DNA of 64,000 nt from NCBI RefSeq assembly GCF_000378605.1, contig NZ_KB905155.1, positions 62,001 to 126,000 of the forward strand, in the 5' to 3' direction. Source of the DNA: Thioalkalivibrio sp. ALJ21. GTDB lineage: Bacteria > Pseudomonadota > Gammaproteobacteria > Ectothiorhodospirales > Ectothiorhodospiraceae. The first letter of the stretch is position 1, and every line of letters starts with the position of its first letter. Under the pieces are notes generated by a model. It saw nothing but the letters and a program-made list of their open reading frames with translations. It did no database searches and had not been told where the DNA came from. Of the stretch, positions 2,851-27,811 are shown in pieces. The position numbers and the translations under genes are program-made.

Positions 2851-5016
2851 TTGGAGCGCGAGGCACGGGATAGGGGCCCATCCACCGGCAAGGCGTTCAG
2901 CGCCTGGCGCACGGCCAGCTGGGTGGCGCTGGTCTACCTGGCGGTCGGACTGCTCTGGATCGGGCTATCCGATCAGGCGTTGTTGTGGCTGGTGGATGAT
3001 GTCCAGGTGCTGGGCTGGCTGCAGACGGTCAAGGGTTTTCTTTATGTCAGCGTGACCGCGGTCGTGCTGTTCCTGCTGCTGTACTGGGTGCTCGCGGCCC
3101 GTGACCGGGCCTCGGCCGAAGCGCGCTATCTGACCGAGGTGGTCAATCGCTCGCCGGTGGTCACCATCGAGTGGGCCGCGCGTCCGGGCTGGCCCGTGGT
3201 GTATGTCTCCCCGAACGTGCGGCGCTGGGGGATAGAGCCGGAGGCGCTATTGTCCGGTGCGGCCGACTATTCCCAGAGGATTCATCCCGAAGACCGCGAG
3301 GCCATCGTCGAGGACGTGTCCCGGCACATGGAGCGCGGGCCGGACGAGTATCTGCAGTACTACCGCCTGGATGTGGGGGGTGGGCGCTGGATCTGGGTCG
3401 AGGACCGGACCTGGCTGGAGCGCGGCCGCGCGGGAGAGGTTCGCCGCTTTCACGGCCTGCTGATGGACGTGACCGAACGGGTGCAGGCCGAGCGCAATCT
3501 GCGTGACAGCGAGAAGCGCTTTCGCGCCATCTTCGATAATGTGCAGGAGGGTATCCTGCTGCAGGACTTCGAGACGGGCGCCTTTGTCGGGGCGAATGCC
3601 GCGGCGCTGGCCATGTATGGCTACGAGCGCGAGGAGATCCTGCGCTGCACCGTCACGGATCTCAGCGCGCGCGAGCCCGGATACGAGGTCGAGCGCCAGC
3701 AGGTCCTGATTGACCGCGCCCGGCGGGGCGAGCAGATCGTGTTTGAATGGCGCGCGCGCCACCGCGACGGCCACGTCTTCTGGGTGGAGGCGAACCTGCA
3801 GGCGACCGAGATCGCCGACGAGCGCCTGCTGCTGGTGACCCTGCGCAACATCGAGCCGCGCAAGAAGGCCGAGCAGGCCCTGAACCGGCAGATGGACCGC
3901 CTGACCCATGCCGAGCGCCATGCGGGCCTGGGTTCCTGGGAATACGTCATCGAGACCGGGCAGCTGTGGTGGTCCGATCATCTGTACGAATTGATGGGCC
4001 TCGAACCGCAACGCTATGCGCCCGGCCTGGGCGATGTCTGGGAGGTGCAGTTCGACCCGGATGCGGGCGACGCGGAACAGTTGAAGGAAGTGCTGCAACA
4101 GCTTTCCCCGGGCCATGAAGGTATCGGCCGGCGGTTTCGGCTGCTGCGCCACCCGTCACGCGGTACCGAACGCTGGTTCAGCCTGACGGTGGATTCCGTG
4201 GCGGAGCGCGACGACGGGCTGCATGCGGTTCAGGGGACCATGCTGGATATTACGGACCTGCAGCAGGCGGAGAGTGAGCTACGTCAATTCAACGCCGAAC
4301 TGGAGGAGCGGGTGCGCGAGCGTACGGCGGCCCTGGAGGCAGCGAACCAGGAACTGGAATCGTTTTCCTACGCCGTCTCGCACGACCTCAAGGCGCCCTT
4401 GCGAGGGATCGACGGTTACAGCCAGCTGCTGGAGGCGGATTACGTCGATTTGCTGGACGCGGAAGGCCAGATGTTCATCCGCAACATCCGGGCCGGGGTC
4501 GCGCAGATGAACGAGCTGATCGGTGACCTGCTCGACTACTCGAGGATGGAACGCCGTCCCCTGGAACAACGCGGCGTGCGTCTGCAACCGCTGATCGAGG
4601 AGGTGCTCGACGGCCTTGATCCCGCGCTGCGTGAACGTGCCGAGGTGGCCGTCAATATGCCACCGGATCTCGAACTGCAGACCGACCCGGACGGGCTGGG
4701 CCTGGCCCTGCGCAACCTGCTCGACAATGCCCTGAAGTTCAGCGCACCGCGCGAAAAGCCGCGCATTGCGGTGACGGCCGAACCTCGGGGCGAGACCCTC
4801 CACCTGGCCGTGAGCGACAACGGGATTGGATTCGACATGGCATTCCAGGAACGCATCTTCGAGATCTTCCAGCGCCTGAATCGTGCCGAAGACTATCCGG
4901 GTACCGGGGTCGGTCTGGCACTAGTGCGCCGGGCATTGCAGCGTCTTGGGGGCCGCATCGAGTGCGAAGGGCGCCCCGATGCCGGCGCCACCTTCCGACT
5001 GGAGCTTCCCCTATGA
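2851..5016 (+). CDS. membrane-bound PAS sensor histidine kinase
   Basis: A 721-residue kinase. Two transmembrane helices (about 23-41 and 62-82) bracket only a short periplasmic loop, so sensing is probably by the cytosolic PAS domains: three PAS/PAC repeats at about 93-214, 222-345 and 355-470. A coiled coil leads into HisKA with phospho-accepting H511 in SHDLKAP. The ATPase domain shows the N box (NLLDNALKF, about 621), DNGIGFD and GTGVGLAL. The start is TTG at 2851 after a GGGCAGGGGA ribosome site; the nearby ATG at 2846 is out of frame. The stop overlaps the response regulator start (ATGA). The signal sensed is unknown. Confidence 0.93.
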   Translation: MEREARDRGPSTGKAFSAWRTASWVALVYLAVGLLWIGLSDQALLWLVDDVQVLGWLQTVKGFLYVSVTAVVLFLLLYWVLAARDRASAEARYLTEVVNRSPVVTIEWAARPGWPVVYVSPNVRRWGIEPEALLSGAADYSQRIHPEDREAIVEDVSRHMERGPDEYLQYYRLDVGGGRWIWVEDRTWLERGRAGEVRRFHGLLMDVTERVQAERNLRDSEKRFRAIFDNVQEGILLQDFETGAFVGANAAALAMYGYEREEILRCTVTDLSAREPGYEVERQQVLIDRARRGEQIVFEWRARHRDGHVFWVEANLQATEIADERLLLVTLRNIEPRKKAEQALNRQMDRLTHAERHAGLGSWEYVIETGQLWWSDHLYELMGLEPQRYAPGLGDVWEVQFDPDAGDAEQLKEVLQQLSPGHEGIGRRFRLLRHPSRGTERWFSLTVDSVAERDDGLHAVQGTMLDITDLQQAESELRQFNAELEERVRERTAALEAANQELESFSYAVSHDLKAPLRGIDGYSQLLEADYVDLLDAEGQMFIRNIRAGVAQMNELIGDLLDYSRMERRPLEQRGVRLQPLIEEVLDGLDPALRERAEVAVNMPPDLELQTDPDGLGLALRNLLDNALKFSAPREKPRIAVTAEPRGETLHLAVSDNGIGFDMAFQERIFEIFQRLNRAEDYPGTGVGLALVRRALQRLGGRIECEGRPDAGATFRLELPL

Positions 5017-24947: not shown

Positions 24948-26519
24948 TTACAGCGCCAGCGGGGTGCGGCGGTAGAGTTCGGGGGCGGGCGGCTTGAGCT
25001 CGTCGGATTCCGGGAAGCGCTGCACCAGCTTGTCGTAGTAACTGCGGATGTTCCGCACATAGTGGACCGGCTCCCAACCGCGGGCGTAGCCGTAGCGGGT
25101 CTGTTCGTACCATTCGGACTGGGCCAGACGCGGCAGCCATTGCATCACATCCAGCCAGCGATCCGGGTCGTCGCCGTTGGCGGCTGCCAGGCGCCGGGCG
25201 TCGTGGAGGTGCCCCAGCCCCACGTTGTAGGCGGCCAGTGTCATCCAGGTGCGGTCGGGCTCGGAGATCGACTCCGGCAGCCGCTCGCGCAGGTCGATCA
25301 GGTACCGCGTGCCACCGTCGACGCTCGCGGCCGGGTCGGTGCGGTCCTCGACGCCCAGCCCCTCGGCGGTGACCTGGGTCAGCATCATCAGTCCACGCAC
25401 GCCGGTGGGAGAAACCGCATCGGGATTCCAGTGTGATTCCTGGTAGGCCACCGCGGCGATGAAACGCCAGTCGAGATCGTAGGTCTCTCCGGCCTCCTCG
25501 AACAGCGGGCGGAACTGTTCCAGGCGATGTTCGACGCGGCGCGCGAAGGTCAGGGCATCGACCAGATCGTGGGTCTCCAGATGGCCGAGGTAGCGATCGA
25601 GCAGTAACTCCAGCTCGCGGTTGTCACGCAGCCGCGCGATATACGCTTCCGCTGCGTCAATCAGGCTGCGATCAAAGCCTGCCGGGAAGAGCCAGCGGAC
25701 CTCGGCGCTGCGTTCCAGCTCGTGTGCCTGGCGCAGGTTCGGGTGCATGCGCCGCAGGCGACGGTACTCCAGGGAATTCATCACTGCGTAGTCGATCTCG
25801 CCACGCTCCAGGGCCTCGCGCAGGGCCTCGGCGTTGGTGTAGGGGATGAGTTCGCCATTGTTCGGGTCCGGTTCGGCTTCGCGGCCCGGGGGTGTCGAAA
25901 TCAGGTCGACCGGCCCCTCCTCGGGCGCTGGCTCGGGCTCGGTTGCCGCATCCGGTGGGGTGTCCGGTTCCATGCTGACCTCGGCCAGCAAGGGCTGGCT
26001 CAGGCTTTCGGGTACGGGAGCCTGAGCGGTCATGCCGACGCGCGCCCCGGCCGGTACGTCGGTCAGCGAGAGCAGCGGAGATGCCCGCTCGTTTTCGTTC
26101 CAGAAGACCAAGACGTGCTTCACGTTCAGGATTTCCGGACCGGCTTCAATCAACGGGTCGTGTGGCGGTACGAGCAGGCCGGCGGCGATGTCGATGCGGC
26201 GTTGGCGCAGAAGGCGATGAGCGGTGGCGGCATCGTCCACGCGGGTCACGCGCAGGCGCGTGCCGAGTTCCTCGGCCAGACCGTGCAGCAACTCCAGCTC
26301 GAGTTGGTCTTGCCCCGCAGTGGAGGCGAGCTCGGAGCGGCCCAGGGGGCTCTCGACCAGGGCCACTCGCAACTCGTCACGGAAGGTGAGTTGTTCCAGC
26401 GCCGCTGGCGGGTTGTAGTACACCCGCAGCACGATGGCGGTCAGCAGCACGATGAAGAGCCCCAGTTCGATCTGGCGCCAGGTGCTGCTTGGGGGGCGGA
26501 GTTTCAGATGCGTGCCCAT
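24948..26519 (-). CDS. mltF: membrane-bound lytic murein transglycosylase F
   Basis: A 523-residue peptidoglycan lyase. One N-terminal membrane anchor (about 18-36) is followed by a solute-binding-protein-like domain (about 45-325) and a C-terminal SLT domain with catalytic E361 in AYQESHWNP, then SPTGVRGLMML and AAYNVGLGHLHDA. It acts in the periplasm on glycan strands. The binding-like domain contains an acidic, proline-rich insertion (about 190-225, PDTPPDAATEPEPAPEE). The start at 26519 lies 44 bp from the MITE-like element. Confidence 0.93.
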   Translation of the reverse strand: MGTHLKLRPPSSTWRQIELGLFIVLLTAIVLRVYYNPPAALEQLTFRDELRVALVESPLGRSELASTAGQDQLELELLHGLAEELGTRLRVTRVDDAATAHRLLRQRRIDIAAGLLVPPHDPLIEAGPEILNVKHVLVFWNENERASPLLSLTDVPAGARVGMTAQAPVPESLSQPLLAEVSMEPDTPPDAATEPEPAPEEGPVDLISTPPGREAEPDPNNGELIPYTNAEALREALERGEIDYAVMNSLEYRRLRRMHPNLRQAHELERSAEVRWLFPAGFDRSLIDAAEAYIARLRDNRELELLLDRYLGHLETHDLVDALTFARRVEHRLEQFRPLFEEAGETYDLDWRFIAAVAYQESHWNPDAVSPTGVRGLMMLTQVTAEGLGVEDRTDPAASVDGGTRYLIDLRERLPESISEPDRTWMTLAAYNVGLGHLHDARRLAAANGDDPDRWLDVMQWLPRLAQSEWYEQTRYGYARGWEPVHYVRNIRSYYDKLVQRFPESDELKPPAPELYRRTPLAL

Positions 26520-26563
26520 GGCACTGGATCATACCCAATTGCCCCGATGGTCACCGGGGATGG

Positions 26564-26849
26564 TAGGGAAACACGGATGAATGTACACACGCGCGTTGGT
26601 ACCCCAGGTTTTCCGAGACAAGGCGCGTCGTGCAGCGGGTAGAGGTTCTACCTGCAAGCGGCGCAACGCAGGATCGGGGAACCTGGGGTGCCAACCCCAC
26701 AACTTAATGAACGAAGGGGCTCGACCGCTTTTGCATGCGCACAGCATTGCGGCTCCCTTGTGCAGAATGACTGCACGGCAGTCACCGCGCCTTGTTCGCA
26801 CGCAAAAGCGACTCGAGCGCGAGCGTGTAGATTCATCCGTGTTTCCCTA
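26564..26849. mobile_element. MITE-like element with TA target duplication (IS630/mariner type)
   Basis: The ends are inverted repeats: 19 bp perfect (TAGGGAAACACGGATGAAT), one mismatch, then five more matches. TA at both outer edges (26564-26565 and 26848-26849) fits the TA target duplication of IS630/Tc1-mariner elements. Inside are two more large palindromes (26595-26614 with 26676-26695; 26720-26742 with 26794-26817) and a small perfect hairpin GACTGC-ACG-GCAGTC (26769-26783). It has no transposase, so any movement would be in trans. It occupies nearly all of the 327-bp gap between mltF and the diiron gene. Confidence 0.75.
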
Positions 26850-27707
26850 GCGCCAGTTCAGCACCAGACCCTGGTCGCGCAGGATCTTGAGCGCGGGGTC
26901 GACGCAGGTGTCGATGAAGGAGGCACGGCGCGGGTTTTCGCGGGCGATGCGGCGATAGTCCGGCCCCTTGGGCAGGCCGGCCAGTTCGTAGATGTCGCGG
27001 GTGGGGTAGTAGAACGCATGCACGAACTGGCGGAATACGCGCCGCATCAGCGGGCGATAGGCCCATTTCTGCCAGGACGGGAGCGTATCCAGATAGGACT
27101 CCAGCGTGTCGCGGGCATGCGCCATGTGGCGTGCCTCGTCGATCATGTGCCGCGTCACGATGTCGTCTACCGTCGGGCTGATCGAGTCCTTGTGCTGGCG
27201 GATCAGCCGGTTCATGCGGTCCGGGACCTCCTCGCCGATCATCACCGCGATCCAGAAGATCGAAGATTCGAACGGCGAGAAACGCCCGACCAGGGTGGCC
27301 AGCTTCGGCTTCGGGAAACGGCGTTCCGGCAGGGGTAGCCCGCTGCGGCGCATGAACTCGATAAACATCAGGCTGTGGCCGGCTTCCTCGCGCAGCTCGT
27401 GCAGGCGATAATTCAGCCGGTCCAGGCGACCGGTCGAGTGCATGGAGATCCGCGAGATGCGCTCCATGAACAGGCCTTCCAGCCACAGCGCCCCACTGAT
27501 GAAATACAGAAACTCGTATTGCGACAGACGCCGTTTGCGGGCATCGTCCAGCGCCGAGTATTCCGGGGTGCCGAAGAGCGATACGGCCTCCTCCGGGATC
27601 CAGAAATCGTCCAGCGACAGCGCATCCCAGCGCACGTGAGTGAGCGGGTCCTCGTACGGCTGGCTGTTGCGGCTCAAGTGATCGAGCAGCTCCTGCGAGG
27701 AATTCAT
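26847..27707 (-). CDS. diiron (AurF/ferritin-like) oxygenase-type protein
   Basis: A 286-residue mostly helical protein. Glutamate and histidine motifs on successive helices, LWLEGLFMERIS, LREEAGHSLMF, MIGEEVPDRM and MIDEARHMAHA, match the diiron ligand pattern of the AurF-like N-oxygenase/metal-dependent hydrolase group. The substrate is unknown and no biosynthetic cluster surrounds it. The final codon is CGC (Arg), and its TAG stop is formed by the TA duplication plus the first G of the MITE-like element, so the original C-terminus may have been different. A minus-strand promoter lies 40-70 bp upstream. Confidence 0.75.
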   Translation of the reverse strand: MNSSQELLDHLSRNSQPYEDPLTHVRWDALSLDDFWIPEEAVSLFGTPEYSALDDARKRRLSQYEFLYFISGALWLEGLFMERISRISMHSTGRLDRLNYRLHELREEAGHSLMFIEFMRRSGLPLPERRFPKPKLATLVGRFSPFESSIFWIAVMIGEEVPDRMNRLIRQHKDSISPTVDDIVTRHMIDEARHMAHARDTLESYLDTLPSWQKWAYRPLMRRVFRQFVHAFYYPTRDIYELAGLPKGPDYRRIARENPRRASFIDTCVDPALKILRDQGLVLNWR

Positions 27708-27746
27708 CGAAGGCGTACCGAAGGCGCTGGGCGGTTAAACGATCGA

Positions 27747-27775
27747 ATCATACCGGCATTGTCGGTCTGGACCAA
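27747..27775 (-). promoter_or_regulatory. candidate promoter of the diiron gene
   Basis: On the minus strand, TTGGTC (27770-27775), a 17-bp spacer and TATGAT (27747-27752). The -10 matches consensus at five of six positions. The transcript would start about 33 bp before the ATG. Confidence 0.5.
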
Positions 27776-27811
27776 CGCCAACCCGTTGCAATCTGCGGTT
27801 GCTACCCCAAT

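Follow-up and report, generated by a model that had tools for sequence, protein, structure and literature searches.

The window analysed here, a stretch of 64,000 nucleotides from Thioalkalivibrio sp. ALJ21, carries a strongly folded repeat between two genes of the minus strand, one encoding a diiron protein and the other an mltF-like lytic transglycosylase. The features of the locus, in window coordinates, are as follows:

24948..26519, minus strand: mltF-like lytic transglycosylase gene (SLT domain), its start 44 bp from the element
26563..26566, no strand: left target copy GTAG (read from the sequence; at other sites, 16 of the 20 contiguous alleles fetched overlap by 4 bp)
26564..26595, plus strand: terminal inverted repeat, left arm (including TAG of the target copy)
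26567..26846, plus strand: MITE body (GGAAAC...GTTTCC), 280 bp, placed by the alignment of copies and by contiguous alleles at other sites
26595..26695, plus strand: interior hairpin domain 1 (22-nt stem and apex triloop hairpin)
26726..26810, plus strand: interior hairpin domain 2
26818..26849, minus strand: terminal inverted repeat, right arm (including CTA of the target copy)
26847..26850, no strand: right target copy CTAG (from the sequence and the ORF), containing the stop of the diiron gene
26847..27707, minus strand: diiron gene (AurF family, PF11583), 286 aa, its end unchanged by the element

The terminal inverted repeat is 32 nt long and 91% complementary, with the outer 19 bp perfect, and the interior inverted repeats lie at 26595-26616/26674-26695 and 26726-26743/26793-26810, so that the perfect 19-bp ends and the two interior palindromes described in a first-pass annotation of the letters are confirmed. 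The triloop hairpin that it called perfect is also present, but the 9-bp stem contains one G.T pair; similarly, TA does stand at both edges of the repeat, but the flanks are better described as an imperfect 4-bp copy, GTAG/CTAG, around a body at 26567-26846. Folded as RNA, the element reaches -170.3 kcal/mol, where dinucleotide shuffles give -101.7 (sd 4.8); with a z of -14.3 and none of 200 shuffles as good, its structure is far beyond chance.

The genome of ALJ21 contains at least 40 copies with 80-100% identity besides 20 short arm-versus-arm matches among the 60 matches listed, the copy number being a lower bound as 40 of 82 first-look candidates were scored; the sequence is thus multicopy and not single-copy. 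Matches to the element were found in 16 of 30 genomes of the genus Thioalkalivibrio, and among 274 genomes sampled from the class, with at most two candidates scored per genome, two genomes outside the genus gave only 30- and 53-bp matches. The alignment of copies from the genus comprises 78 rows with inverted ends, including one misaligned row (L067:646-931) that also enters the counts of predicted pairs made with RNAalifold, and the copies are about 270-317 bp long when measured with part of the target copies. The element is therefore short, multicopy and bounded by terminal inverted repeats; its 280-bp body is without a transposase gene, while its ends are shared with an autonomous insertion sequence (IS) of the same tips; and unoccupied alleles with a single target copy, overlapping by exactly 4 bp in 16 of the 20 fetched, exist in relatives. 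On these grounds (copies, unoccupied alleles, IS with matching tips) the element is real and mobile, and the earlier reading of it as a MITE holds.

The target was assessed from the flanks of the copies and from related strains. The flanking 4-mers are identical in 26 of the 77 copies in which they could be measured (one of the 78 rows dropped), where 5000 shuffles gave 14.7 on average and never more than 24, and 64 of the 77 have YTAR on one side or both; in the ALJ21 genome alone, identical 4-mers flank only 12 of 39 copies measured. The joined flanks of the 24 best BLAST matches of the 40 ALJ21 sites were searched in two relatives, of which G013 had 9 sites filled, one scar (the window site) and 14 contiguous alleles as read from coordinates, and G008 had 12 filled, 10 contiguous (one with a tip remnant) and 2 ambiguous. 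Twenty of these 24 contiguous alleles were fetched; in 16 of them the two flanks have exactly 4 bp in common, and only 10 of the 20 have a strict YTAR. The target is thus looser than YTAR, or has decayed. The empty sites that the first-pass annotation had asked for do exist, but their single target copy is of 4 bp and not TA, and the IS630-type TA duplication that it had assumed is not borne out. An IS630/Tc1-type MITE duplicating TA only, to which the TA at both outer edges would point, has a negligible chance of being correct, since 16 of the 20 contiguous alleles overlap by 4 bp rather than 2 and the IS that carries these tips belongs to the IS5 family.

This IS was found with a pattern for MITE tips that do not continue into the MITE interior. 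It is about 1.2 kb long and has the MITE tips and a transposase gene whose product matches NF033581 'IS5 family transposase' (NCBIfam) at 322.8 bits, with a cut-off of 140, and contains the domains PF01609 and PF05598. Matches to the transposase occur in 8 of the 30 genus genomes, all 8 of which are MITE-bearing, and in none of the 14 MITE-free ones; they are near-full-length in five of the genomes, partial in one and weak (32-38% identity) in two. The near-full-length gene is present in nine copies in the five genomes, one of them with two internal stops, and in nine IS copies both tips are recognisable at a distance of about 1.2 kb. In five of the eight IS copies with both flanks visible, the flanking 4-mers are identical (CTAG twice, TTAA, GTAG and TAAG), the other three having unlike flanks; YTAR is the conserved TSD motif of IS5 in the accessible text of PMC10359306. 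Hence the tips of the MITE are common to an IS that encodes an IS5-family transposase, and of the 4-bp YTAR duplication typical of such elements the length agrees in 16 of 20 alleles, the motif being loose. Beyond the tips, BLAST of the MITE against the IS loci gave no interior similarity, other matches having E of 0.1 or worse apart from a neighbouring MITE copy in L120 and, in L123 and L128, pieces resembling the MITE that lie at the edges of the IS or beyond them. The L120 copy (L120:1035-1350, genome G005) stands beside an IS5-family copy (1352-2555) with CTAG at the junction.

Taken together, the anatomy, the alleles and the IS argue, with a probability of about 0.92, for a non-autonomous MITE moved in trans by an IS5-family transposase that would target a YTAR-like site and leave a 4-bp duplication. 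The anatomy suggests that the GGARACRCTGAT tips are what the transposase recognises before it cuts at the YTAR-like site and duplicates 4 bp. In the search of the 30 genus genomes, no match to this transposase was detected in the ALJ21 genome, and therefore the copies there are probably stranded. As partner candidates, a transposase with PF01609 was not found in the ALJ21 genome, and PF13546 and PF13586 matched in 1 and 2 of the 30 genus genomes, respectively, with none in that of ALJ21.

The stop codon of the diiron gene is indeed at the edge of the element, as first annotated: TAG at 26849-26847 on the minus strand, within the right target copy. It had been supposed that the insertion cut off or reset the C-terminus of the diiron protein. 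However, among the 12 named records with an orthologous gene, all of Thioalkalivibrio and the nearest 99% identical, the protein ends at the same residue in all 12 relatives read, ten of which are without the full element; of the other two, one has the full element and one a 20-bp palindromic scar. The strain ALE14 has CGC-TAG at the end of the gene, i.e., an unoccupied CTAG. In ALE31, which is counted among the ten, TAGGGAAACA follows the last diiron codon (L053, after position 3858), possibly a half remnant (half tip) of the element. In the simplest history the insertion would have used the CTAG that contains the diiron stop, with the duplication keeping the stop.

Landing on a stop would not be unusual in this GC-rich genome, where YTAR is rare and some of its sites are stop codons: the window has 42 YTAR sites (window ends left out) against about 474 predicted from base composition. 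Of the 42, 7 coincide with the stop of a called gene, 15 lie within genes and 20 between them. As YTAR is rare and partly coincides with stop codons, landing on TAG is expected. A preference for stop codons as a special property of the element was rejected, since 8 of 40 ALJ21 copies are on called stops against 7 of 42 window YTAR sites, which is no excess; the calls come from our own rough gene caller, which missed at least one likely case (L021, by eye) and was run slightly more strictly in the window. The genes on either side of the copy at L021 apparently run in the same direction, the copy sits on a TAG that by eye resembles a stop, and the G008 allele of this site (L204) keeps a one-sided tip remnant. 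The 4-bp duplication would rebuild the stop, and the comparison of relatives shows the host protein unchanged. More generally, IS5-type elements may be harmless on stop codons in GC-rich genomes, where the target holds TAA or TAG and the duplication rebuilds the stop. At five other sites (L006, L017, L024, L026 and L168) called genes end within the tip of the element after reading 13-18 nt of it, and there the element itself may supply the stop.

A role in the expression of the neighbouring genes was the other suggestion made for this locus. The start of mltF does lie 44 bp from the element, as annotated, but the proposal that the element carries or blocks the mltF promoter finds no support, as a consensus scan of 26400-27000 gave neither a sigma-70-like promoter nor an intrinsic terminator, and 9 of 12 relatives show, as judged by eye, a TATGAT/TATCAT motif 5' of mltF that in the window falls within the 44 bp outside the element. 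Rfam gave no match on the element, and its sole hit in 26000-27800 (E up to 1) is outside it and far below the gathering score. One might still suppose that the element persists because of an RNA function, as a structured RNA, mRNA stabiliser or terminator, with its covariation reflecting selection on the RNA. The fold z-score of -14.3 speaks for this, as do the 37 of 89 predicted pairs with at least one two-sided change (the misaligned row included) and the interior pairs that vary mainly by G.U, such as columns 208/218 (CG 54, UG 22) and 225/253 (CG 53, UG 20); but RNAalifold prefers G.U columns, so these interior counts are not independent evidence. Between genes of the same direction, 23 copies are oriented with transcription and 10 against it (two-sided p about 0.04), by a rough gene caller at a lenient setting on 71 sites (22:9 and 21:9 at stricter settings), after 3 sites close to contig ends and 1 that lacked genes had been set aside; 27 of the 71 are between divergent genes and 7 between convergent genes. 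For the ALJ21 genome the ratio is 15:3 with the first gene caller and 13:5 with the second. The window copy itself, however, is oriented against transcription, 14 of the 24 sites tested in the relative G013 are without the element, and the scan and Rfam results above gave no terminator-like site and no known RNA.

The mismatches of the outer stem also bear on this. On the plus strand and without position 23, the one-sided mismatches are G-T in 15 cases, A-C in 36 and other in 38, which is the reverse of what pairing in a plus-strand transcript would leave, and hence pairing in plus-strand RNA is probably not what maintains the outer stem. The structured RNA of the first-pass annotation, with no Rfam match and with outer-stem mismatches that do not favour G.U on the plus strand, is not supported as far as the outer stem goes, and an RNA function as the reason for keeping the element is, on the whole, improbable. 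The element would rather be selfish DNA tolerated at a harmless site. The case shows how a repeat may resemble a conserved RNA, by its strong fold and its many paired changes, and still be open to a reading as palindromic mobile DNA; a search for RNAs that relied on such changes by themselves could go astray here.

How the two arms match was analysed in 76 copies (2 of 78 rows dropped). Within a copy they differ on average at 0.66 of 10 positions (13-22) against 2.49 with shuffled partners, the minimum in 2000 shuffles being 2.03, and matched departures from the consensus number 85 against 19.5 expected for independent arms. The unmatched arm positions, 118, exceed the 85 matched ones, and for this reason the homogenisation is incomplete. 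Neither the shuffle nor the expectation control allows for shared ancestry; only the number of different symmetric haplotypes does so. At positions 11-20 the arms are symmetric in 41 of the 76 copies, and the haplotypes there fall into 14 symmetric and 30 asymmetric types. The ends of the IS differ from each other at 6-7 of the 10 positions 13-22 in all nine copies; by eye, the common MITE arm (67/76) resembles the right IS end, and the rarer arm (9/76) the left one.

After insertion, the long palindrome appears to evolve as DNA, the arms of one copy being rewritten to match each other. Template switching, described as a mechanism for RNA stems in the available part of PMC8794818, may have produced this matching. 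The paired arms might otherwise come only from the descent of several already symmetric founders, with no rewriting at all, and shared ancestry does explain part of the pattern: some symmetric haplotypes recur in several copies, and the interiors also occur in shared haplotypes. As the whole explanation this is rather doubtful, since several of the 14 symmetric haplotypes at positions 11-20 were seen once, one symmetric tract is unlike all others and yet identical in both arms, and the IS with the same tips is asymmetric at these positions.

The cores would also be exchanged between copies, and the hairpin would at times be lost, leaving a short palindromic scar. The same 20-bp palindrome is present at the window site in ARh2 (L050) and in G013 (L183), where ALJ21 is full, and in both it carries G at the fourth base after the CAC of the GGAAAC tip block, as in the window copy; G in this column occurs in 4 of the 78 alignment rows. 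In G028, a 22-bp palindrome (L102) stands where ALJ21 has a full copy (L168). At the window site, G013 groups with ALJ21 by the downstream flank (42 sites, with 11 and 7 for the alternatives), while the upstream one gives no clear grouping (8, 11 and 11 sites); the scar at this site may have arisen either once or twice. In the comparison of ALJ3 with the window copy the tips are alike and the apex haplotype and the core spacer differ, which suggests that exchange between copies may have taken place. The patterns themselves are observed; template switching, conversion and hairpin deletion would be the processes behind them, the last presumably forming the scars. That the family is a natural record of bacterial palindrome dynamics, with arm rewriting by template switching, exchange of interiors and hairpin-deletion scars, has about an even chance of being right. 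If so, the ends would have been taken from a single side of the asymmetric IS and then made symmetric, and the structure would persist without an RNA function. With full, scar and empty alleles across related strains, palindrome deletion and arm homogenisation become measurable.

Not every short tip palindrome can be taken for a scar. The ALJ21 genome has 12 matches to the tip palindrome, 5 of which are in a second repeat family and 1 (L184) is unlike joined tips; 6 solo tip pairs of 18-28 bp remain, and a reversed control pattern gave 0 matches. The genome G018 has 16 tip-palindrome matches, though it is without the MITE. The second repeat family is roughly 170-200 bp long, apparently of consecutive hairpins, and starts with a 26-bp palindrome of the same IS5-type tips; nine copies, near position 1500 in L173, L178, L139, L145, L177, L179, L181, L142 and L150, were aligned.

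The element belongs to a known kind, the IS5-type MITE, and what stands out is the covarying arms within each copy and the palindromic scars in related strains at two sites that are full here. The closest described element of this kind found is MITEPsy1 of Pseudomonas syringae pv. phaseolicola, which, according to the accessible portion of PMC3189936, is of 100 nt with 18-nt ends, has 5 chromosomal copies and 1 on a plasmid, and was captured in a trap plasmid; the element described here is of about 270-317 bp, with at least 40 copies, a multi-hairpin interior and different ends, and is known from sequence alone. It is like the IS5-family insertion sequences, as these are presented in the text at hand of PMC10359306, in its 4-bp, often YTAR, target and in sharing its tips with an NF033581-encoding IS, and unlike them in having no transposase gene and no similarity inside the IS beyond the tips. 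The Chunjie MITE of Geobacter uraniireducens is likewise a bacterial MITE family, with a full-length copy of 235 bp and with size and sequence variants in the part of PMC10969869 consulted; its host is another, and it is likened here by description, not by sequence or transposase. GTAG/CGTC REP repeats, also palindromic and of the same genus, were reported in two Thioalkalivibrio isolates, as far as the viewed sections of PMC3733652 extend; the REPs are short (20-40 bp) single palindromes, whereas the element combines terminal repeats with an interior and a 4-bp duplication, by which description it is set apart. In literature searches on Thioalkalivibrio MITEs, insertion sequences and repeats, which covered few subscription journals, none of the titles listed was of a paper on the family.

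Two further observations concern the sites. Where a flanking 4-mer departs by one step from an intact partner, the change is CTAG to CCAG next to GG in 12 of 18 cases, and in 5 of 9 when the ALJ21 genome is taken alone. Vsr-type repair would give such a change; a Vsr gene was detected in 6 of the 30 genus genomes and not in that of ALJ21. Another ALJ21 copy (L010, around 1501-1771; G000:C2:492467-492735) lies inside a TPP riboswitch, the halves of which score 24.0 and 29.5 bits on its two sides (gathering score 54.3). The site is also filled in the relative G008, and the contiguous allele in G013 (L188) is an intact TPP riboswitch with 72.9 bits.
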